Origin: Candidatus Poribacteria bacterium
Lineage (GTDB): Bacteria > Poribacteria > WGA-4E > WGA-3G
Assembly: GCA_022824265.1 (NCBI GenBank)
Contig: JAJEAG010000005.1
Span: forward strand, 21,966-85,965
Reading direction: 5' to 3'
Length of the DNA: 64,000 nucleotides
The notes beneath the pieces were generated by a model. It did no database searches. It saw only the letters and a program-made list of their open reading frames with translations, and was not told the origin of the DNA. A program made the position numbers and the translations under genes. Each line of letters begins with the position of its first letter. Within the stretch, counting starts at the first letter, position 1. This document shows positions 5,011 to 21,671 of this stretch, in pieces.

Positions 5011-8000
5011 TCATCGGGTTGACGCATGTAATGTAGTTTCTAATTTACGTTTGAGTATTACACCCCATTGACCCACTACCCAGAGTGAATTCCCCTCTTT
5101 TGCTCGTGTTATAACATATAGGTTGTTGTCAATATCAGTATGTTCTTGTTCCCATGTTTCACCTCCATCAGTTGAACGTATAATAGTCCCTTCATCTCCG
5201 ACAGCATATATGACATCTTCTGAAAGAGCAAGAATACTGTTTAATGTTTTGGCATTGACGGATAATTGTGGTTGCCAAGTAAAACCGCCATCCACAGTCT
5301 TTAGAATAATTCCATCTTCTCCTACAGCCCATCCTTTTCTCTTAGTGGCAAATGATACTGCAAGTAAGTCAGACAGAGTAGTAGATTCGTGATATTTCCA
5401 ATATTCACCACCGTTGATAGTTCTTTGGATTGCTCCACCTTGTCCAACTGCCCATCCAAGTGGTGCGAATTTCATATCAACACTTGTGAGTGTGTCGTTG
5501 ACTGTGGTCCGTTGTAGCGTCCATGTGGGACCTCCGTCTTTGTTGTGAATGATGTCCCCAAATCTACCAACCGCCCATCCTTCTGAAAACTTACCAAAAA
5601 CAACATCGTTCATTGAGTAGTTTCCTGGAGCCTCACCTTCATAGAATGGAGGTCTTTCAGGGGTGTCACCTGCTGTCCAAGTATTTCCATCTGTGGTATA
5701 TAGTACGGTTCCGTCACGACGCATCGTCCAACTCCATTTTGGTTCAAGACTTGCGAAGTGAATACCGATAAGGCGTTGCCGTGGTTGGATTGCCAGTTTT
5801 TCCCATGTTTTTCCGCCATCCTGTGTTTCCATTAATGTTCCATCATTATTTCCAATCCATCCAATCTTGTCATTGTAAAAAAGCACTTCACGGAAATCAT
5901 TACGATCTTGCTCACCGAGTTGACGTTCCCATGTTTCGCCGCCATCTGTGGTGCGATATATACTCCCTGCACCTCCAACTGCCCATGCATGTTGTGTATC
6001 AAGAAAGAATACATTTGCAATTCCAGAAGCCGCTCTACTTCTAAACCGTCTTCTCGGTTCACGGGGTGGAGTAGGTTGTTGTCTTGATTGATCAGTCTGT
6101 TCAACGTTAGGTGGGATTGTCCCTTCAGGCGCAAGGCTGCCTGGTTGTTGCCGTTGCTGGCTTAACTGCCGTTGCAGTACATCAAATGGGGAGAATTCAG
6201 GTGATGTAGTTGATACTTCTTGATCGTCTGATTCATCGTTTTCTGTTTCTACAGGAGTTTGTTCTACTGGTTGTTGTAACGCAACTCTACCATCACCAGT
6301 ATTTATGAAAATGGGTTTCCAATTTAATCCTTGGTCCTTCGTAATATAAACGCTACCACCACCAATACCCCAGGCATCTGTATGCGAATTGAATGTAATA
6401 TTGCGTAACCCTCGTGTGCTCTGAGATGCAGCTTGCATTTTCCATGTTTCTCCGCCATCACCTGTTAGCAAAGAGTTTCCATCCCCAAGTATTACCCAAC
6501 CATTCATTTCATCTTGAAAGTGTACTGCTATGCCTGCTTGATTAGTTTTTGTTTGTATTTTCCAGTAATTTCCACCATCTACAGTGTGTAGAATGAAACC
6601 ACCATCTCGTCGTTGTGGAGCAACTGCCCATCCTTCTAAACTATTAATAAAATGAAGGTCTGTTATGTTAGCATTTGTCGTCCCAGTTTTCTGGACTTTC
6701 CAAGTTTTTCCACCGTCGTTTGTGTGTACTATTTGTCCAATTGATGCCCCAAGCCATCCTTCATCTTTACTGATGAACTGCATCATAGTCATCCGTGGTA
6801 AGTTTTGTTGAGTTGTTCTTACCATTGGTTTCCACGATTCGCCACCGTTGTTTGTTTGAAGTAGAATACCTGATCCAAGAATAAATCCATTTTGTTTATC
6901 TATAAATTCAACTTCTCGTAAATTGGCACTAACCCCACTATGTTGAGGTAGCCATGTTTCTCCACCATCAGTTGTACGTGCAATTACTCCACCAGAACCG
7001 ACTGTCCATCCATTTGCTTCATCTATAAAATGTGTGTCTGCAAAATTTGTTCTCCAAGTTGCCTGTCGAATTATATCCCAGTGGTAGACAACCGGAACAA
7101 TAGGTGTCTCCTCTTCAGCAACTATAATTTCTGGTTCGGTAGCCACAGGTGGTAAGTTTGTCGGCAATTGAACATTATCAACTGTATATCGCATTGCGAT
7201 TCCACCTTTACCTACAGCGACCACTCCATCAGGTGAAAGAGCTAATCCGTAAAGATCGTTCTCTGTACCGCTTTTTTGAAGTTCCCATTTTTTACCGCTG
7301 TTTATAGTGGTTAACATGACTCCGTCATCACCGACAATTAAACCGTGCTGTGTATCTGAAAAATAGAGTTTATTTAGGTTTTTTTGTGTCCCGCTGTGTT
7401 GGACATTCCAATCTTTACCACCATTTTTTGTGTGTAGTATTTCACCAAATTGACCAACAATCCATCCGTTGTTTTCATCAACGAAGTATACAGCATATAG
7501 TTCATTAAAAGTATCTGTATCTTGTTTATTCCAAGTCAGACCCCCATCTTCGGTTGCAAGGCATACACCGGGCCAACCGATTGTCCATCCTCTTTTTTCA
7601 TCAAGGAAAAACACGCCTTTTAACATAATTGCATGAAAATCACCGATAGGAATTTGTGGAAGCCAAGTATTTCCACCATTTATTGTGTGCATTATTGTGC
7701 CGACATCTCCAACAATCCATCCGACTTTTTCATTGACAAAATGCACAGCCCGAAGTGTAAATTGTGAAGAACCACGTTGTGGTTCCCATTTTGTACCTCC
7801 ATCTGTAGTATGGATAATAAGTCCACGATCACCAACTGCCCAACCGTGTTTATCGGTTGCAAAGTAGATATTCCAAATTCCATCCCAGATTTCTGAATCC
7901 AATTCTGTCCATGTTTCTCCACCATCATTGGTTGTCACCATCGTTCCACCCTTACCCACAGCAATAGCACGGTTAGCATCTGTAAACTGTACATTCTGTA

Positions 8001-9048
8001 GGTCATTTGCTGTTGTACCGCTAACCATCTCCCAGGTCTTACCTGCGTCCTTGGTGTGCATAATGGTGCCTGACCAACCGATTGCCCATGCCTCATTTCG
8101 TGTGGTGAACTGGACACCAGTCAAATTATTTTCTATACCGCTCTCCATCAATTGCCAGTTATCGCCACCGTCTTCTGTGCGTGTAATGAATCCTATATCT
8201 GACACAGCAATACCGAAATTTCTATCTGCAAAATGGATAGAGTTAATAGTCTCTCGGACGTGTCCATTGATCAGTGGAATACGACTATCCTGTTTCTCCC
8301 AATTTACACCCGCTGATGTGGTATGGAAAATCGATCCATCACTCCCAGCAATCCACCCTACATTATCACTGATGAAAAACACATGTTTGTTGTCATTAAT
8401 TAATCGGTCACGTTCACCTTCAAAGCGGTTGCTCTGTTCTTGCCATGATTCACCACCGTTTGTGGTATGAAAAATTCTATCATAGGTGCCAACCGTCCAT
8501 CCTCTGTAATTATCAGCGAAGTAGACACCGTTTAGTGGGAATTCACTTACATGTTGATATCGATTCCATGATCTCCCACCATTTTTTGTGTAAAGGACAT
8601 CAGAATCTTCACCAACAACCCATCCTTGTTTCCCGTTTGAAAAGAAGACATCACGTAACATCGCAGAAGAACCACTTTTTTGCAAACTCCAGAATCTACC
8701 ACCATCATCGGTTGTTGCGATAAGTCCATTATCTCCGACCGCCCATCCATCTTTTTCATTTGCAAAATAGACAGCCTTGAAATCACCAGTAGTATTTACT
8801 TCCTGCTTCTGCCATGTTTTTCCACCGTCTGGAGTATGTACAATTGTACCACCAAGTCCAACTAACCATCCTTTATTAGCGTTTACAAAGTGTAGATCGG
8901 TGAAGTTTGTTTCCCAATCGGCTTTACGTACTGCTTCCATCTTTACACAACCGTTGATAAGGATCATAACTCCAAGAATAAAGAGAGCTGTAGTTGTAAT
9001 AAGAGTTGTGTTGTTTCTTAGTGACATCTTCTGGTATTTAAATTGCAT
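5011..9048 (-). CDS. large YCF48/BNR-repeat beta-propeller lipoprotein (1345 aa)
   Basis: Lipobox-like MILINGC; more than 20 degenerate repeats of the type GWAVGDxGxIxxTxDGGxTWxxQxSGT. Confidence 0.9.
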   Translation of the reverse strand: MQFKYQKMSLRNNTTLITTTALFILGVMILINGCVKMEAVRKADWETNFTDLHFVNANKGWLVGLGGTIVHTPDGGKTWQKQEVNTTGDFKAVYFANEKDGWAVGDNGLIATTDDGGRFWSLQKSGSSAMLRDVFFSNGKQGWVVGEDSDVLYTKNGGRSWNRYQHVSEFPLNGVYFADNYRGWTVGTYDRIFHTTNGGESWQEQSNRFEGERDRLINDNKHVFFISDNVGWIAGSDGSIFHTTSAGVNWEKQDSRIPLINGHVRETINSIHFADRNFGIAVSDIGFITRTEDGGDNWQLMESGIENNLTGVQFTTRNEAWAIGWSGTIMHTKDAGKTWEMVSGTTANDLQNVQFTDANRAIAVGKGGTMVTTNDGGETWTELDSEIWDGIWNIYFATDKHGWAVGDRGLIIHTTDGGTKWEPQRGSSQFTLRAVHFVNEKVGWIVGDVGTIMHTINGGNTWLPQIPIGDFHAIMLKGVFFLDEKRGWTIGWPGVCLATEDGGLTWNKQDTDTFNELYAVYFVDENNGWIVGQFGEILHTKNGGKDWNVQHSGTQKNLNKLYFSDTQHGLIVGDDGVMLTTINSGKKWELQKSGTENDLYGLALSPDGVVAVGKGGIAMRYTVDNVQLPTNLPPVATEPEIIVAEEETPIVPVVYHWDIIRQATWRTNFADTHFIDEANGWTVGSGGVIARTTDGGETWLPQHSGVSANLREVEFIDKQNGFILGSGILLQTNNGGESWKPMVRTTQQNLPRMTMMQFISKDEGWLGASIGQIVHTNDGGKTWKVQKTGTTNANITDLHFINSLEGWAVAPQRRDGGFILHTVDGGNYWKIQTKTNQAGIAVHFQDEMNGWVILGDGNSLLTGDGGETWKMQAASQSTRGLRNITFNSHTDAWGIGGGSVYITKDQGLNWKPIFINTGDGRVALQQPVEQTPVETENDESDDQEVSTTSPEFSPFDVLQRQLSQQRQQPGSLAPEGTIPPNVEQTDQSRQQPTPPREPRRRFRSRAASGIANVFFLDTQHAWAVGGAGSIYRTTDGGETWERQLGEQDRNDFREVLFYNDKIGWIGNNDGTLMETQDGGKTWEKLAIQPRQRLIGIHFASLEPKWSWTMRRDGTVLYTTDGNTWTAGDTPERPPFYEGEAPGNYSMNDVVFGKFSEGWAVGRFGDIIHNKDGGPTWTLQRTTVNDTLTSVDMKFAPLGWAVGQGGAIQRTINGGEYWKYHESTTLSDLLAVSFATKRKGWAVGEDGIILKTVDGGFTWQPQLSVNAKTLNSILALSEDVIYAVGDEGTIIRSTDGGETWEQEHTDIDNNLYVITRAKEGNSLWVVGQWGVILKRKLETTLHASTR

Positions 9049-10946: not shown

Positions 10947-12545
10947 ATGGACATATTGAGATTAACGTTCTTGAAGTATTTTGGGATTATTCTATTCTGT
11001 TTTGTCTTGTGGAGTCCACTTGTGGTAGCAGACAATCATGGAAAAGAAGAACCCGTGAGTTATTATAAACAGATTCTTCCGTTGCTCAAACGGAGTTGTC
11101 AAGGATGCCATCATCCCGGTGATCCAAATGGTGACTTGATTGTGACATCTTATGATGAACTGAAACGGGGAGGAATGGCAGGGGAAGCGATTATCCCTGG
11201 AAAACCTGATGAAAGTCTCATCATTGAGCTCATTTCTGGCGACCCTCCCGCAATGCCCCAGAACCAAGAACCACTTACTATAGATGAGATAGACCTATTC
11301 AAACGTTGGATTCTTGAGGGGGCAAAAGACGATACACCTGAGAAAACTAACGATGTTGGAGAGGGAAACTATCCGAAATATACTGTGCCACCGGTAGTTT
11401 CTGCGATGGCATTTTCTCCTGATGGTACTACACTTGCTGTATCAGGCGTTGGTGAAGTATTGTTGTATGATTCTGTTACTTTGGAAATCAAAGCACGATT
11501 GGTAGGCAATGCCCGTCGCATACAATCCATTGTATATACAAATGAGGGCAAAATACTCGGTATTGCTGGTGGATCTCCCGCACAATTTGGTGAAGTACAG
11601 TTGTGGGATACTACTACAAACAAACTTGTCAAAGCAATTCGATCTACTTTTGATACTATCTACGGACTCTCATTCTCACCAAATTCCAGTCGTGTCGCAT
11701 TCGGATCATCTGATCATACGGTGCGAGTTATTTCTATTGCGGATGAAAAGGAACTTGTGAAATTCGACAATCACAGTGACTGGGTTTTTGGTACGGTTTT
11801 TTCTACGGATGGATCACACTTTGTCAGTTGTAGTCGTGACACAGCACTTAAGTTGGTGGAGGTAGATACAGGTTCGTTTGTTGATGATGTGAACTCAAGC
11901 AATAAAGGCTATGGAGAAATCAATGCAATTGCACGACATCCGAATGCAGACCAAGTTTTGAGTGTCGGAGAAGACAGAATTCCACGGTTATACAAAATGT
12001 TCCGTGAAACTCGGAGAGATGTAGGGAATACAGATTTCAACCTAATTAGAGCGTATGAAGCACAAGGTGGGTCAATTGATGCTGTTGCGTTTTCTACAGA
12101 TGGCAATAAATTTGCAGTGGGAAGTTCCGCAGGTGAAGCACGTATATATAATGTATCAGACGGAAAACGTCTATTATCTATGCAAGGTGATACCGTAGGA
12201 ATATTTGCTCTTGCGTTTCATCCTGATGGAACGAAACTCGCTACGGGTGGATTTGATGGTAAGATCCGTGTGTTTGACGCTAACTCAGGCAAACAACTAC
12301 ATATTTTTATGTCAGTGCCAATAGAAACTGATGCAAGTGAAGAACTTACTTTAGCTGTATCGGGTATGACGTGAGGGGTTTGTGTTGAAAAAGTGCAGGA
12401 TGCACTTACAAAACATCAGAATGTGATTAGTGCTGAAGTTTCTCTACCAGATCAAGCGGTCATTAAGGTACGGAAGGATAGTGTTTCGGTTGATGAACTT
12501 ACGAATGTAATTAAGACAGCGGGATTTACTGCTACTGCTAAGTAA
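10947..12545 (+). CDS. putative selenoprotein: cytochrome c-like (PSCyt) + WD40 repeats + C-terminal HMA domain with predicted Sec at TGA 12372-12374
   Basis: ORF track ends at TGA 12374 (..LTLAVSGMT*). The same frame continues GVCVEKVQDALTKHQNVISAEVSLPDQAVIKVRKDSVSVDELTNVIKTAGFTATAK to TAA at 12543-12545, reconstituting an HMA domain with UGVC in place of CxxC. N-terminus has CQGCH and WD40 repeats follow. Confidence 0.8.
12378..12414 (+). promoter_or_regulatory. putative bacterial SECIS element
   Basis: Perfect hairpin AAGTGCA-GGA-TGCACTT at 12391-12407, GGA loop starting 23 nt after the TGA; additional lower pairing TTTGT (12379-12383) with ACAAA (12408-12412). Matches general bSECIS geometry (apical loop G, about 16-37 nt from UGA). 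Confidence 0.65.
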
Positions 12546-12555
12546 TAACCTAAAT

Positions 12556-14010
12556 ATGTCTGTTGAAACACCAAATATCTTATGGATATGCACTGATCAA
12601 CAGCGTTATGATACAATAGGAGCATTAGGTAATCCTTACGTATCCACACCTAATATTGATAGTTTGGTTGCTGAAGGTGTAACGTTTACGCATGCGTATT
12701 GTCAAAGTCCTATTTGCACTCCGAGTCGTGCAAGTTTCTTGACAGGTATGTATCCGAGTGCAGTTCATGTAAATGGCAACGGTAATGATTATTTTCCGGG
12801 TACATTTCCACTTGTCACACGCACACTTGCAGACATTGGATACGATTGTGGATTGATTGGAAAATTACATCTTGCGAGTGCTTTTCGTAGAATAGAGCCG
12901 CGTGCAGATGATGGTTACCGATATTGGCAATATAGCCATGCACCACGAGATGACTGGGAGGAAGGACACGATTACGCTGATTGGGTTCGTTCAAAAGGAT
13001 ATATACTTCGCGAGTTAACCCAAAACCCGGAAGGTGTCCCAGCAGAATTACATCAAACAACTTGGTGTGCTGAAAAGACGATAGAGTTTATCTGTGAGAA
13101 ACGAGATGTCCCTTGGCTTGCAAGTGTTAACATTTATGATCCACATCCTCCGTTCAACCCACCTCAGTCATATAGGGAACAGTTTAATCCGGAAGACATG
13201 CCAGGACCGCTTTTCAAGGAGAGTGATTTAGAACAACAATCTCAACTCAGTAAAATTGATTTTCAGTCAAAAGTTCGTACACCTGATGAATTGGATATAC
13301 GAAATCCTATTATACCACAGGCACCGCGAGGCAAGACAAAACCTGAATTGGTAGGACAAAGGGATGCAAAGACACTGACGGCTGCGTATTATGCCATGAT
13401 TAAACTGATTGACGATCAATTGGGACGAATACTGAATGTATTGAATGAAACAGGACAACGAGAGAATACCGTTATCATTTTCACAAGCGATCACGGGGAA
13501 ATGTTAGGGGATCATGGACTTATTCAAAAAGGTTGTCGGTTTTATGAAGGTTTGGTCAGAGTGCCTTTGATTTTCTCGTGGCAAGGACATTTTGAAGACG
13601 GTTTAAAAAGCGAAGCACTCGTTGAACTTGTTGACAAAACACCAACTCTATTGGAATTAGCAGGTTTACCTATTCCTGAGCAGATGCACGGACGTTCGCT
13701 ATTATCTATCCTCCGAGGTGAATCAGATGCAAATCATCATCGTGACTTTGTAAGGTGTGAATATTATGATGCACTTGATCAACGTGACCATACTTTCGCA
13801 ACAATGTATCGGGATAAGCGTTATAAGTTAGTAGTGTATCATGGACATCAAGAAGGAGAACTCTACGATTTGGTTGATGATCCTGATGAGTTCCATAATC
13901 TCTGGAATGATAGCAATATGCAAGATATTAAATTGGACTTGTTAAAAAGAAGTTTTGATGCTTCAATGGTTTCTATGGACAGAGGTCCACAACGTGTCGG
14001 ACCAATGTAA
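12556..14010 (+). CDS. sulfatase family protein (arylsulfatase-like, Cys-type)
   Basis: NILWICTDQQRYDTIGALGNP; CTPSR formylglycine motif (SPICTPSRASFLTGMYPS); TSDHGEMLGDHGL. Confidence 0.95.
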   Translation: MSVETPNILWICTDQQRYDTIGALGNPYVSTPNIDSLVAEGVTFTHAYCQSPICTPSRASFLTGMYPSAVHVNGNGNDYFPGTFPLVTRTLADIGYDCGLIGKLHLASAFRRIEPRADDGYRYWQYSHAPRDDWEEGHDYADWVRSKGYILRELTQNPEGVPAELHQTTWCAEKTIEFICEKRDVPWLASVNIYDPHPPFNPPQSYREQFNPEDMPGPLFKESDLEQQSQLSKIDFQSKVRTPDELDIRNPIIPQAPRGKTKPELVGQRDAKTLTAAYYAMIKLIDDQLGRILNVLNETGQRENTVIIFTSDHGEMLGDHGLIQKGCRFYEGLVRVPLIFSWQGHFEDGLKSEALVELVDKTPTLLELAGLPIPEQMHGRSLLSILRGESDANHHRDFVRCEYYDALDQRDHTFATMYRDKRYKLVVYHGHQEGELYDLVDDPDEFHNLWNDSNMQDIKLDLLKRSFDASMVSMDRGPQRVGPM

Positions 14011-14990: not shown

Positions 14991-17480
14991 TTGGAGGTTA
15001 ATGTGAAACTCAGTTTTAACTTGGTTGTTACACTTCTTGTCGTGCTCTCATGCTGTTTTGTATTTCAGCAGATAAGTTGGAGTCAGATGGAGGAGACTAC
15101 ACCGAGTGTTGAAGTACCCGAAATCAAAGCATTGAAGATTCATCCTGAGTCGTTGGCATTAGAGCATGCGCGAGATGGTCGTCGTGTACTTGTTTCGGGA
15201 CAAACGAAAGATGGAAAATGGGTAGATGTAACATCTTGGGCAGTGTTAAAACCTGCTTCAGAAGGTGTTAAATTACATGAAGATGGTTATATCTTTCCGA
15301 ATACAGTTGGCACAACAAAGATAACGGTATCTGTTAAGGGAGTCACTACTGAATTACCAGTGGCTGTAAATAGTATGGATGCCCCACCAGTGAGTTTTGT
15401 ACGTGACGTTATGCCGATTCTAAGCCATGCGGGTTGTAATAATGGCACATGTCATGGTGGTGCAAAAGGCAAAAATGGTTTTAAACTGTCGCTACGCGGT
15501 TATGATCCAGATTTCGACTATGAACTCTTGATTGAAGATATAACTGGTCGGCGGTTTAATCGTGCGTTTCCGGAACAGAGTCTTATGCTTCTCAAACCGA
15601 CATCTGAAGTTCCACATAAGGGTGGTCAGGTGATTGTGCCAGATTCCCGTGATTACAATCTTATTCATCAGTGGATTAGTGAAGGTGTTGCCTCAGATGT
15701 TGAAAAAACACAACGGGTTGAAAGGTTGGAAGTATTTCCAAATTCAGCAGAATTGTCTATGCCTGGGACTAAACAGCAATTATTAGTCATTGCTCATTAT
15801 CCCGATGGCACAACACGCGATGTAACCCGTGAAGCAAAATTCACAAGCAGTATGAATGAAGTCGCTAAGGTAACGGATGATGGGGTCGTGACTGCAGAAC
15901 GTCGTGGAGAAACTGCCATACTAACCCGCTATGAAGGCGCGTATAGCACAAACGGTATCATCGTTATGGGTGATCGTAGTGGGTATGAATGGGTTGAAAC
16001 TCCTGAATACAACTACATTGATACTCATGTCCACAATAAACTGAAACGGCTGAAAATTCTACCGTCTGAACTCTGTACGGATGAAGAGTTTGTTAGAAGA
16101 ATTTACTTTGATATGACAGGGCTCCCACCAGCACCTGAAAAGGTGCGTAGTTTTCTTATGGATGAAACACCATCTAAGGAGAAACGTGAAAAACTGATTG
16201 ATGCTTTGGTTGGAACAACCAAATATGTTGATCATTGGACACATAAATGGGGAGATCTGTTACAATCAAACCGTAAATTCCTCGGTGAACGCGGTATGTG
16301 GCTTTTCCAACAGTGGATACACGAGTCAATTACAGATAATCGTCCGTACGATAAATTTGTTCATGACTTGATTACGGCAACAGGCAGTGCGTATCAAAAC
16401 CCCGCAGCGAATTATTTTCGTGTTTCACGTGAATATACTGCTGCTGTGGAAAACACAACACAACTGTTCCTTGGTGTTCGTTTCTCATGTAACAAATGTC
16501 ATGACCATCCATTTGAGGTATGGACTCAAAATCAATATTATGAATTCGGAGCATTTTTCTCTGATGTTAAGTTGAAAAATGGGCGATTACCGGGTGAAGA
16601 GGTGGTTTATGCAAGTTTCAGTCCTACTCCAGTGAAACACCCAAGAACGTTAGCCGTTGTTCCAGCATCTGTCCCATTTGGTGAAACAAAGCAAGATATT
16701 ACCAATAAACGTGAATCTCTTGCGGAATGGCTTACGTCCTCTGAGAATCCAATGTTCGCAAAAGCTGGTGTGAACCGAATCTGGAGCTACTTCATGGGAC
16801 GCGGTATCATTGAACCTGTTGATGATATTCGGACAAGTAACCCACCCAGCAATCCGGAACTACTTGATGCCCTGACCAAAGACTTTATTGAAAGCGGTTT
16901 TGATATTAAACATATCATGAAAACGATTACTCGTTCTCACACCTATCAACAGAGTATCAAAACTAACAAGTGGAACAAAGAAGACACGATTAATTTCTCA
17001 CATGGAATTGCACGTCGTTTGACAGCTGAACAACTGTTAGATGCGATTGGTATTGCGACGGGAAGCCAACCGAAGTTTCAAGGTGTGCCAAAAGACTTCC
17101 GTGCTGTCCAATTACCCGACAGCAAAGTGAAGGATGATGGTTTTTTGAAATTGTTCGGACGACCCGAACGTGAAAGTTCATGTGAATGTGAACGAACAAC
17201 TGAAGTAAGCCTTGCTCATGCAATGAACCTAATCAACGGACCGACAGTTGCCAACGCAATTATAGATCCAAAAGGACGAATTGCCAAACTTATCAAAGAG
17301 AACACTGAAGATCGTGCTCTTATTGAAGAGTTATATCTTGCAACATTTGCTCGGTTACCGATGGAAAACGAATATAAGATAGCGGTTGAACACCTTGCCA
17401 GTGCTGAATCTAAGGAAGAAGGCGCGCAAGATTTGATGTGGGCATTACTTAACAGTCCCGCGTTCTTATTCAACCGATAA
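14991..17480 (+). CDS. DUF1549/DUF1553 (PSCyt2/PSD1) protein with N-terminal Ig-like domain
   Basis: EEFVRRIYFDMTGLPPAPEKVRSFL; FSCNKCHDHPFEVWTQ; GVNRIWSYFMGRGIIEPVDDIRTSNPPSNPELLDAL; SRTHTYQQS-type motifs. Confidence 0.93.
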   Translation: MEVNVKLSFNLVVTLLVVLSCCFVFQQISWSQMEETTPSVEVPEIKALKIHPESLALEHARDGRRVLVSGQTKDGKWVDVTSWAVLKPASEGVKLHEDGYIFPNTVGTTKITVSVKGVTTELPVAVNSMDAPPVSFVRDVMPILSHAGCNNGTCHGGAKGKNGFKLSLRGYDPDFDYELLIEDITGRRFNRAFPEQSLMLLKPTSEVPHKGGQVIVPDSRDYNLIHQWISEGVASDVEKTQRVERLEVFPNSAELSMPGTKQQLLVIAHYPDGTTRDVTREAKFTSSMNEVAKVTDDGVVTAERRGETAILTRYEGAYSTNGIIVMGDRSGYEWVETPEYNYIDTHVHNKLKRLKILPSELCTDEEFVRRIYFDMTGLPPAPEKVRSFLMDETPSKEKREKLIDALVGTTKYVDHWTHKWGDLLQSNRKFLGERGMWLFQQWIHESITDNRPYDKFVHDLITATGSAYQNPAANYFRVSREYTAAVENTTQLFLGVRFSCNKCHDHPFEVWTQNQYYEFGAFFSDVKLKNGRLPGEEVVYASFSPTPVKHPRTLAVVPASVPFGETKQDITNKRESLAEWLTSSENPMFAKAGVNRIWSYFMGRGIIEPVDDIRTSNPPSNPELLDALTKDFIESGFDIKHIMKTITRSHTYQQSIKTNKWNKEDTINFSHGIARRLTAEQLLDAIGIATGSQPKFQGVPKDFRAVQLPDSKVKDDGFLKLFGRPERESSCECERTTEVSLAHAMNLINGPTVANAIIDPKGRIAKLIKENTEDRALIEELYLATFARLPMENEYKIAVEHLASAESKEEGAQDLMWALLNSPAFLFNR

Positions 17481-17541
17481 GCCTATACCTATTTATGTGC
17501 AACTAAAATGAAAGTTAGCACAAACAATATGGAGGAAATAA

Positions 17542-18990
17542 TTGATGATATCGTTACCACAAGCCCCCGGAAGATTATGTGATGGGTTCTCACGTAGAGA
17601 ATTTCTCCGCGTGGGTGGCGCGGCGATGCTGGGCATTAGCCTTCCGCAAGTATTGTCACTCCAAGCCAAGGCAAGCACGACAGTTGACCCCGCGAAGCCT
17701 CTAAATGGTTGGGGCAAAGCCAATTCTGTCATTCTTCTTTTCTTGCAAGGTGGACCGAGTCACATTGATATCTGGGATCCAAAACCGGATGCACCGTCAA
17801 ACATACGTGGTGAATTTAATCCAATTCCGACAAATGTTCCGGGCATTCAGTTGTCAGAAACAATGCCGCGTTTGGCACAACAGATGGATAAAGCATGTCT
17901 TATCCGTTCAGTAAGTTATACACCTGCCGGACTATTCAATCACACTGCTGCGATGTATCAGATGGTTACTGGAGAAACACCGGACAAGGTTGCTCCTTCC
18001 GGACAACTTGATCCACCATCCCCTGCTGATCATCCTAACGCTGCAGCACATATCTCCAAGTTCAGACCGCCTGAAGAACCGATGTTAGCAGCCGTCCAAC
18101 TTCCGCGTCCAATGCAGGAGAGTGGTATTATCGGTAAAGGTGGAAATGCAGGATTCCTTGGTAGAGCTTATGACCCATATTTTCTATTCCAAGATCCTAA
18201 TACGGAAATTAACCTTGATGATTTGAAACTCAGACCGGAAGTGCCACCGAAGCGGTTGCAGCGTCGGAAGACACTCCTTGAAACAATTAACGCCAATATG
18301 CCAGAAATTGACAAAGTGGCAGATTCCTTTGCGCTGAACGAATACTATGAAAAAGCGTATAACCTCATCTTGTCTCAAAAGGCACGCAACGCGTTTGATT
18401 TATCTCAGGAAACTGATGAGATACGTGACAAATATGGTCGTCATACATTCGGTCAGAGTGCGTTACTTGCCCGTCGATTAGTCGAAGCAGGTACCCGTTT
18501 CGTACAGGTGAACTGGCCCTCCGTTGCTAACGGTAACCCAAATACTACGGCATGGGATACGCACGCAGCTAACTTCGGTCCACTGAAAAACCTCCACTGT
18601 CCAAAATTAGATAGTGCGGTTTCTTCACTGCTTGAAGATTTAGATCAGAAGGGCATGTTAGAGGAAACGCTTGTACTCGCAATAGGTGAATTTGGTCGTT
18701 CACCGCGGATGGGTATTAGCACATCTGGAAACGGAAACGCACCTGATGGACGTGACCATTGGCCCTACTGTTACACTGGTCTTATTGCAGGTGCTGGTGT
18801 TAAAGGTGGTCAGGTTTACGGTAAGTCTGATGCTACGGGTTCAACACCACTTGAAAAACCGGTACATCCGCGGGATATCCTCGCTACAATTTACCATACG
18901 CTTGGTATAGATCCGCATACTATCGTAATGAATCACTTAGATCAACCGCGTGAATTGGTAAAAGGTGAGGTAATTACTGGAATATTCTAG
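17542..18990 (+). CDS. DUF1501 family protein with Tat-type signal
   Basis: CDGFSRREFLRVGGAAMLGISLPQ; VILLFLQGGPSHIDIWDPKPDAP; EFGRSPRM...GRDHWPYCYTGLIAGAGVKGGQVYGKSDA. Confidence 0.95.
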   Translation: MMISLPQAPGRLCDGFSRREFLRVGGAAMLGISLPQVLSLQAKASTTVDPAKPLNGWGKANSVILLFLQGGPSHIDIWDPKPDAPSNIRGEFNPIPTNVPGIQLSETMPRLAQQMDKACLIRSVSYTPAGLFNHTAAMYQMVTGETPDKVAPSGQLDPPSPADHPNAAAHISKFRPPEEPMLAAVQLPRPMQESGIIGKGGNAGFLGRAYDPYFLFQDPNTEINLDDLKLRPEVPPKRLQRRKTLLETINANMPEIDKVADSFALNEYYEKAYNLILSQKARNAFDLSQETDEIRDKYGRHTFGQSALLARRLVEAGTRFVQVNWPSVANGNPNTTAWDTHAANFGPLKNLHCPKLDSAVSSLLEDLDQKGMLEETLVLAIGEFGRSPRMGISTSGNGNAPDGRDHWPYCYTGLIAGAGVKGGQVYGKSDATGSTPLEKPVHPRDILATIYHTLGIDPHTIVMNHLDQPRELVKGEVITGIF

Positions 18991-19172: not shown

Positions 19173-21671
19173 ATGCCAAAAATTTTATTATATAAACATG
19201 AAGATATAGAAAACAAACACAATAGACCGTTTCTGATACCGATATTCATGATTCTCTCTCTAATTGTCAGCTTAGCACATGCTCAAGTTGCTCCGCAATT
19301 GACAGGTATATCCCCGCGCGCTGCACAACGTGGACAAACCATAGATGTAATGTTAGATGGAAAAAACATTAATGAAAGTGCAACGGTATGGTTCAATAAA
19401 GAAGGTATAAAAGCAGAAATTAAGCAAAAATCTCCTGTAGCAACGGTCCGTGTTACAGGTTCTGGAATATCAGCGAATATTCCAAACGATCCACGATTAG
19501 TTCTTTCTTTTCAAATTGCCCCTAACGCACCACTCGGTAACCACCAAATACGACTTATCACACCAAACGGTGTTTCCAATCCACAAAACTTTATTGTCGG
19601 TGACCTACCAGAGATTAAGGAACAGGAACCAAATACAACAATAGATAAAGCAAACATGCTTGAGTTGCCAGTTACTGTTAATGGCACGATATCCTCTATT
19701 GATGATGTGGATAGGTTTCGTTTTAAACTTAGAAAAGGCGCACGACTTATATGTGACATACACGCGCAACGAATCGGATCGCCATTAGATACCTACCTTG
19801 TGCTTTATGACCCAAATGGCACTGAGATATTGAAAAGTCAGGATGGAAATGGATTAGATTCATTTATTGATTATACAACACAAATGGAAGGTGAATATAC
19901 GCTTTATCTACGTGATGTCCGCTATCAAGGTGGAGGAAATTATTTATACAGACTTAACATAGGCGAGTTACCTTACCTTCAAAGTGTTTTTCCTCTCGGT
20001 GGGAAACGTGGTGCTGCGAACAATGTTAATGTTGCTGGGGCAAATTTAGGTTCAGTCAATGCCATACAACTGGATATTTCTCCGGACGCATCACTTGGAA
20101 TTCAGGAACTGCGAGTCAGCACACCAAACGGTTTAGAGACAAACCCATATCCATTTGCAATTGGAGAATTCAACGAGACGAATGAAACAGAACCGAATGA
20201 CGTTTTAGCACAAGAAAACAAAATCGGCACACCGATAACAGTGAACGGTAGAATAGAGAAAACTGGTGATGTAGATAGGTTCTCTATCAAGGTAGAAAAA
20301 GGAACGAATTTAGTATTTGATGTACAAGCACGACAGTTTCGTTCACAACTGGATCCAGTGTTAACCATTTATTCTCATAAAAAGGGTGAAGCTGAAGGTA
20401 GCGTTGAAGAACAGGTCTTAAGAGTGAATGATGATGCAAGTGGTACCGATGCAAGGATAGGGTTTGCATTTCCTGAAGCAGGTGATTACGGTATTTCCGT
20501 GCGTGACCTTAACAGTGCAGGTGGTGCGGATTTTCCATACAGACTTACCATCAGACCTTTGAATCAAGGTTTTCGTCTTAATGTTAATGCGGATAACCCA
20601 CGTATAAGTCGTGGTGGTACTTTTACAATGACTGCCTCTGTTGCTCGATTAGATGGGTTTAATGGTGCCCTTCGCTTCTACTCTCCTGACCTACCAAAAG
20701 GATTTGTGGTAAGTTCAACAATCCTTTATCCAAGTCAAAATCAAGCATTATTAACGATAACTGCTCCCACTGATGCACCTCTTGGACTCCATCCTTTCTC
20801 TATTGTTGGGGTCAGTGCAGTCGGAGGTAATCGTATAGAAGAAACTGCCTCACCGAAGGAAATACTCTTGACAGTGATGGAAGCCCCTCCGTTTACACTA
20901 ACATTTGCTGATGTAGGTGTTAATGTAGTTCACAATAAAGCCACAAACTTCCATGTTATTGCGGATCGGAGAGTGGACTTTAATGGTCCCATTGCTCTTA
21001 CTGTTCAGGGAGTTCCAGCGCGTATTACAGGTGGAAAAGCCACTATTGCTGCTGGACAAAATAGTGCGGTTATATCACTTAGAGCGGGAACCGTTGAAAG
21101 ACGAGAACAGTTTTCTGTTGTTCCTACACCGGGTACAAGTTATATCTCTGTTAGTGGTTCTGCAACCGTAAATCGAGAAAACTATATCGAATCATCTCCT
21201 GTTATCCCTCTGACAGTTGTTGAAGCACCATTTATCGTTACGATAGAACCGCTGCGGTTTAGTATTGTTTTTCCAAAACCAGCAAATGAAACTGAACCTG
21301 CGGAAGCTGCAGGTGAAGGTGAAACTGTTGCAGTCTCAAATCCAAGTCCAGCGGAGAATACACAGACAGAACAGACAGAAACAGAGGAAAAAGTTGAACC
21401 GTTAACCAAAACTGCAAAACTGACCATGAGCATTGTTCGGAGAGGAAGTTTTACTGACATCGTTACCATTACGCCTATTACAGTACCAGAAGGCATCTCC
21501 ATACCGGAAGCAACGATACCTATCAATGAAAACGATGTAGAGGTAGATCTTAAAGCAATCAGTTCTCTTGAACCCAAGACTTATCAGGTTAAATTTAGAG
21601 CAACCGCAGTAATTAACGGTAAGACATTTCAACAGGATAGTCCTGTTATCAATGTGAAGATTATTAGATAA
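19173..21671 (+). CDS. secreted protein with IPT/TIG-like and repeated pre-peptidase C-terminal (PPC) domains
   Basis: Signal peptide; EQEPNTTIDKANMLELPVTVNGTISSIDDVDRFRFKLRKGARLICDIHAQRIGSPLDTYLVLYDPNG and a second PPC copy (EPNDVLAQENKIGTPITVNGRIEKTGDVDRF). Confidence 0.9.
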   Translation: MPKILLYKHEDIENKHNRPFLIPIFMILSLIVSLAHAQVAPQLTGISPRAAQRGQTIDVMLDGKNINESATVWFNKEGIKAEIKQKSPVATVRVTGSGISANIPNDPRLVLSFQIAPNAPLGNHQIRLITPNGVSNPQNFIVGDLPEIKEQEPNTTIDKANMLELPVTVNGTISSIDDVDRFRFKLRKGARLICDIHAQRIGSPLDTYLVLYDPNGTEILKSQDGNGLDSFIDYTTQMEGEYTLYLRDVRYQGGGNYLYRLNIGELPYLQSVFPLGGKRGAANNVNVAGANLGSVNAIQLDISPDASLGIQELRVSTPNGLETNPYPFAIGEFNETNETEPNDVLAQENKIGTPITVNGRIEKTGDVDRFSIKVEKGTNLVFDVQARQFRSQLDPVLTIYSHKKGEAEGSVEEQVLRVNDDASGTDARIGFAFPEAGDYGISVRDLNSAGGADFPYRLTIRPLNQGFRLNVNADNPRISRGGTFTMTASVARLDGFNGALRFYSPDLPKGFVVSSTILYPSQNQALLTITAPTDAPLGLHPFSIVGVSAVGGNRIEETASPKEILLTVMEAPPFTLTFADVGVNVVHNKATNFHVIADRRVDFNGPIALTVQGVPARITGGKATIAAGQNSAVISLRAGTVERREQFSVVPTPGTSYISVSGSATVNRENYIESSPVIPLTVVEAPFIVTIEPLRFSIVFPKPANETEPAEAAGEGETVAVSNPSPAENTQTEQTETEEKVEPLTKTAKLTMSIVRRGSFTDIVTITPITVPEGISIPEATIPINENDVEVDLKAISSLEPKTYQVKFRATAVINGKTFQQDSPVINVKIIR

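Follow-up and report, generated by a model that had tools for sequence, protein, structure and literature searches.

We provide evidence that positions 10947 to 12545 of the window (the whole 64,000-nucleotide stretch of DNA analyzed here) very probably encode an exported selenoprotein, with selenocysteine (Sec) predicted at the UGA codon at 12372-12374. This reading, put forward in a first-pass annotation made from the letters of the window, is now supported by the selenocysteine machinery of the host genome, by conservation of the UGA, by constraint on the sequence beyond it and by a downstream hairpin that is tied to Sec. The gene has the following parts:

10947..12545, + strand: full selenoprotein gene, 532 amino acids with predicted Sec476
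11097..11258, + strand: PSCyt1 (planctomycete cytochrome c) domain, residues 51-104
11406..12323, + strand: WD40 beta-propeller, residues ~154-459 (Pfam; the best Foldseek matches are WD40 propellers)
12336..12542, + strand: HMA (heavy-metal-associated) domain, residues 464-532 (Pfam PF00403, AlphaFold)
12372..12374, + strand: UGA codon, predicted Sec476, first metal ligand of GMT-U-GV-C
12391..12407, + strand: candidate bSECIS hairpin AAGUGCA-GGA-UGCACUU, 7 bp with a 3-nt loop starting GG, 23 nt past the UGA
12543..12545, + strand: true terminator, TAA

The product would comprise, in order, a signal peptide or transmembrane segment, a PSCyt1 domain with a CxxCH heme motif, the WD40 propeller and an HMA domain with a UxxC motif. 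The frame from 10947 is open to the TAA with the TGA as its sole interruption. The sequence at 12363-12383 reads GGT ATG ACG TGA GGG GTT TGT, and the tail, with the TGA taken as a residue, matches the Pfam HMA profile at 40.7 bits (cut-off, 24.8), which bears out the original observation that a TGA stands at the first Cys of a GMTCxxC motif in a frame that continues to a TAA. The start coordinate given at that time, 12348, lies inside the first strand of the HMA domain and is superseded by that of the complete gene. The tail contains the peptides VQDALTK and HQNVISAEVSLPDQAVIK. For residues 464-531 AlphaFold predicts the HMA fold (beta-alpha-beta-beta-alpha-beta) with high confidence (block pLDDT of ~82-93) and places residue 476 immediately before helix 1; solved relatives of the tail by sequence are ATP7B, CopA, MerP and CopZ domains (7xuk, 1afi and 1cpz). 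The PSCyt1 part is poorly modeled by AlphaFold; its profile (PF07635) is matched at 40 bits against a cut-off of 22, and the heme motif C51-Q-G-C54-H55 is invariant across 16 orthologues.

The host is a Candidatus Poribacteria MAG (G000) that is 96.7% complete; every relative found at 71-96% identity bears the name Candidatus (or uncultured) Poribacteria, and the protein occurs in both sponge-associated and marine members of the phylum. As the first-pass annotation had proposed, we searched the parent genome for Sec genes, and tRNA-Sec, SelA, SelB and SelD are all present. The tRNA-Sec scores 78 bits and has the anticodon TCA; directly upstream of it ends a gene for a SelB-like GTPase (L009:7933-9948), identified by sequence and position rather than by profile. 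SelA scores 609 bits and SelD 362 bits, the latter (L010, G000:C8:37723-38649) having an in-frame TGA of its own, as is common among SelD proteins. Across the family, tRNA-Sec was detected in 51 of 58 genomes; the search gave no match in the other seven, three of which are <85% complete and four >90%. Phylum-wide, 75 of 85 genomes have a detectable tRNA-Sec, as do 54 of the 56 better ones.

The "matching downstream hairpin" noted earlier is real. Published limits for bSECIS elements are a loop of 3-9 nt with a G in the first two positions, a stem of 4-16 bp and a spacing of 16-37 nt (PMC13188914 Fig. 2), and the window hairpin lies inside all of these. Its minimum free energy alone, from -6.4 (17 nt) to -7.4 (19 nt) kcal/mol, narrowly misses the published limit of -7.5 kcal/mol or below (PMC13188914); a 59-nt fold reaches -12.1, and the z-score against shuffled sequences is -1.5. 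Four of the seven stem pairs are invariant, and base-pair covariation adds little because the stem hardly varies. Since covariation is too weak to prove pairing, the case for the hairpin rests on synonymous freezing and on the contrast between Sec and Cys copies. The hairpin is synonymously frozen: K, V, Q and A are encoded in it throughout by AAA, GTG, CAG and GCA (100% each), while a single codon reaches at least 95% in only ~2% of 313 columns with a conserved amino acid and a degenerate code (hypergeometric P of ~4e-7 for four of five frozen hairpin codons). Among the HMA copies collected, the inner five pairs and a G-starting loop (GGN or GUC) are kept in 67 of 68 copies with a TGA, the odd one having no resemblance to the others and probably being a chance motif match. 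By contrast, none of seven Cys copies keeps the five inner pairs together with a G-starting loop. A scan of the 64-kb window with Rfam at gathering thresholds found nothing. Other combinations of a TGA and a hairpin in the window, at 19511 (-), 46592 (-) and 7634 (+), were rejected; they have no recognizable domain motif in frame, and two are antisense to long genes.

The contrast between Sec and Cys copies draws on further HMA proteins of Poribacteria. Four HMA domains of G000 exceed the Pfam cut-off, three with a TGA and one with Cys. Besides the window gene, the following proteins have in-frame TGAs:

L044:4157-4540 and L044:4632-4973 (G000:C70): two adjacent small lipoprotein-like HMA proteins, one in-frame TGA each
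L045:3319-4518, - strand: tandem HMA array of five repeats, three Sec and two Cys (predicted)
L046:4011-5165, + strand: tandem HMA array of four repeats, three Sec and one Cys (predicted)

In each of the lipoprotein-like proteins the TGA falls at the first metal ligand and is followed by a matching hairpin. In the L045 array, one stem base present in all three Sec repeats is missing from both Cys repeats, and in the L046 array the hairpin is wholly lost in the Cys repeat. To judge from sequence, the Sec-form HMA proteins of G000 have export-signal-like N termini, whereas its fourth HMA domain, with the Cys motif GMHCENC, is on a copper-type P-type ATPase and is presumably cytoplasmic. This alternation of Sec and Cys, between exported and cytoplasmic domains and between repeats within one protein, offers small soluble domains in which to test directly what a metal site gains by having Sec rather than Cys. 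The neighbors of the lipoproteins and arrays (a GIY-YIG nuclease, GlnE, an IS605 transposase and PhyH) give no hint of a metal or substrate. A redoxin/TlpA-like lipoprotein with GGUPFC (in-frame TGA), at L044:160-897 (-), is likely a selenoprotein of a known kind.

The UGA of the window gene is conserved, as is the sequence behind it. With the 91-residue tail as the query, a match was found in all 59 family genomes searched (in G009 only weaker ones), and 58 of the 59 have a long WD40-HMA gene, each with exactly one internal TGA; the terminators at the end of the HMA extension in the orthologues compared are TAA or TAG, never TGA. In the homologue alignment that the first-pass annotation had suggested, TGA occupies the Sec476 codon at all 51 named-contig loci of the window lineage and at three loci (L106-L108; 52-53% identity) from a poribacterial lineage that has diverged further, and Cys is found at this position in two other poribacterial loci (L104 and L105; 58% identity). 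In a tree of the propeller, the Sec forms split into two clades, and the Cys forms take unresolved positions between these. The median pairwise dN/dS of the extension, with the hairpin codons left out, is 0.134, and that of the WD40 core is 0.047; purifying selection acts on the coding sequence beyond the TGA. As the arrangement of UGA and HMA is present in every full orthologue of the lineage, with this low dN/dS and frozen hairpin codons, it is not due to chance. Homologues ending at the TGA without an HMA, a further point raised by the first-pass annotation, exist only at a distance: close homologues carry the HMA, while three poribacterial loci (L110-L112) and homologues from Verrucomicrobia and elsewhere (L113-L133) end after the propeller without one.

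These distant homologues bear on a refinement of the selenoprotein reading, according to which the gene has two products: termination at the UGA would give a short cytochrome-propeller, insertion of Sec would give the long form, and selenium supply would set the ratio. The position of the UGA, immediately beyond the propeller, makes such a choice possible, and the short form, of 475 residues, would resemble the HMA-less homologues. However, the Cys orthologues make the fusion constitutively; the long form is therefore the useful one in those organisms, which argues that it is also the main product here. Moreover, Sec falls in mid-domain in the HMA lipoproteins and arrays, and stopping there would give no sensible short form. 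We consider a dual product unlikely. It is very improbable that the UGA is read through as a residue other than Sec, i.e., as Cys or Trp or by leaky near-cognate read-through. The genome has the full Sec machinery, the bSECIS-type hairpin is retained only with the TGA, there are homologues with Cys at this position, and otherwise TGA serves as an ordinary stop, ending 9 of 40 long open reading frames in the window. Least credible of all is that the UGA is a genuine stop, a nonsense mutation or a sequencing error with a decaying tail behind it: although the distant homologues do end nearby without an HMA, the identical TGA in 51 of 51 lineage loci with an intact HMA behind it, the low dN/dS of the extension and the frozen synonymous codons exclude a nonsense mutation or decaying tail, and the recurrence of the TGA in these and the three more distant loci excludes the sequencing error that had originally been entered as a caveat.

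On the selenoprotein reading, the hairpin, 23 nt beyond the UGA at 12372-12374, would direct SelB and Sec-tRNA-Sec to insert selenocysteine at that codon. The resulting c-type heme protein would have a WD40 propeller and, at its C terminus, an HMA domain bearing a Sec-Gly-Val-Cys metal or redox site. In the oxidizing envelope, Sec476 and Cys479 may capture a soft metal ion, such as Cu(I), Hg(II) or Ag(I); we think soft-metal binding a reasonably probable role. Alternatively, the two residues may act as a selenolate/selenenylsulfide redox pair; that their role is mainly redox is plausible, if rather less than probable. Electron exchange between the Sec-Cys pair and the heme on the same chain is also possible. 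A broader proposal, which we make only speculatively, is that the envelope HMA domains of this lineage (those of the cytochrome-propeller fusion, the lipoproteins and the three-Sec arrays) use Sec as their standard ligand; Poribacteria might then have a selenium-based extracytoplasmic system for soft metals or redox chemistry. The UGA of the fusion could at the same time be a switch, sensitive to selenium, that decides whether the cytochrome is made with or without its HMA.

That HMA domains can contain Sec is not new. The metal-binding (seleno)protein UxxU, NF041115, has an HMA-type domain with Sec in the metal motif (PMC13188914 Table 1). Its alignment with the window tail spans the whole domain at 41.9 bits; however, this is far below the cut-off of 95, and the window protein has UxxC, not UxxU, and is fused to a cytochrome-propeller. 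A UxxC motif in a heavy-metal protein is likewise known from the cation-transporting P-type ATPase selenoprotein, TIGR01525 (PMC2398784, PMC13188914), but that is a membrane ATPase, whereas the window protein is a predicted exported heme protein without an ATPase. The MerT/CopZ fusion-like heavy metal transport selenoprotein, NF045683, resembles the window protein in having a CopZ-like HMA part and being named a selenoprotein, yet the window protein lacks the MerT part and reaches 14.5 bits where the cut-off is 375. Sec-type MerP is known or predicted from ocean metagenomes. The MerP, CopZ and ATP7B domains have the HMA fold and GMTCxxC loop in common with the window tail but have Cys where the window has Sec, and they stand alone or on ATPases. 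PSCyt1-WD40 proteins of Verrucomicrobia and Armatimonadota have the same heme and propeller parts, at 41-46% identity, but end near residue 460 without an HMA. The window protein is under the cut-off of every NCBIfam model touched, and an inventory of 119 families (PMC13188914) lists neither the cytochrome-WD40-HMA fusion nor the lipoprotein pairs nor the mixed Sec/Cys arrays. What is new is the fusion to an exported cytochrome-propeller, together with its lipoprotein and three-Sec array relatives. In open-licence literature, we found no paper joining selenoproteins with Poribacteria or selenocysteine with PSCyt1. The fusion adds a domain architecture to those of this 2026 prokaryotic selenoprotein inventory (PMC13188914), and the arrays with three Sec stand at the top of its range of 1-3 Sec (PMC13188914). 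Ordinary gene calling would cut the HMA tail off in every poribacterial genome.

Downstream of the gene lie the following neighbors:

12556..14010, + strand: sulfatase
14991..18990, + strand: PSCyt2/PSD1 (DUF1549/DUF1553) protein and DUF1501 protein

A sulfatase signature is found near 47 of 51 lineage genes. We did not adopt the sulfatase as a functional partner: its position is conserved, but shared context alone is no evidence of shared function. The PSCyt2/PSD1 and DUF1501 genes are also found near homologues outside the window lineage. A second, partial WD40-HMA copy in another assembly (L050:3780-4658 / L040, G001:C53) is joined after a run of N to the start of a sulfatase and is probably an assembly artifact. 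Elsewhere in the window, 5011-9048 (-) encodes a 1,345-amino-acid protein of many YCF48/BNR repeats, which a 699-amino-acid protein near the tRNA-Sec locus (L009:11988-14087) resembles.
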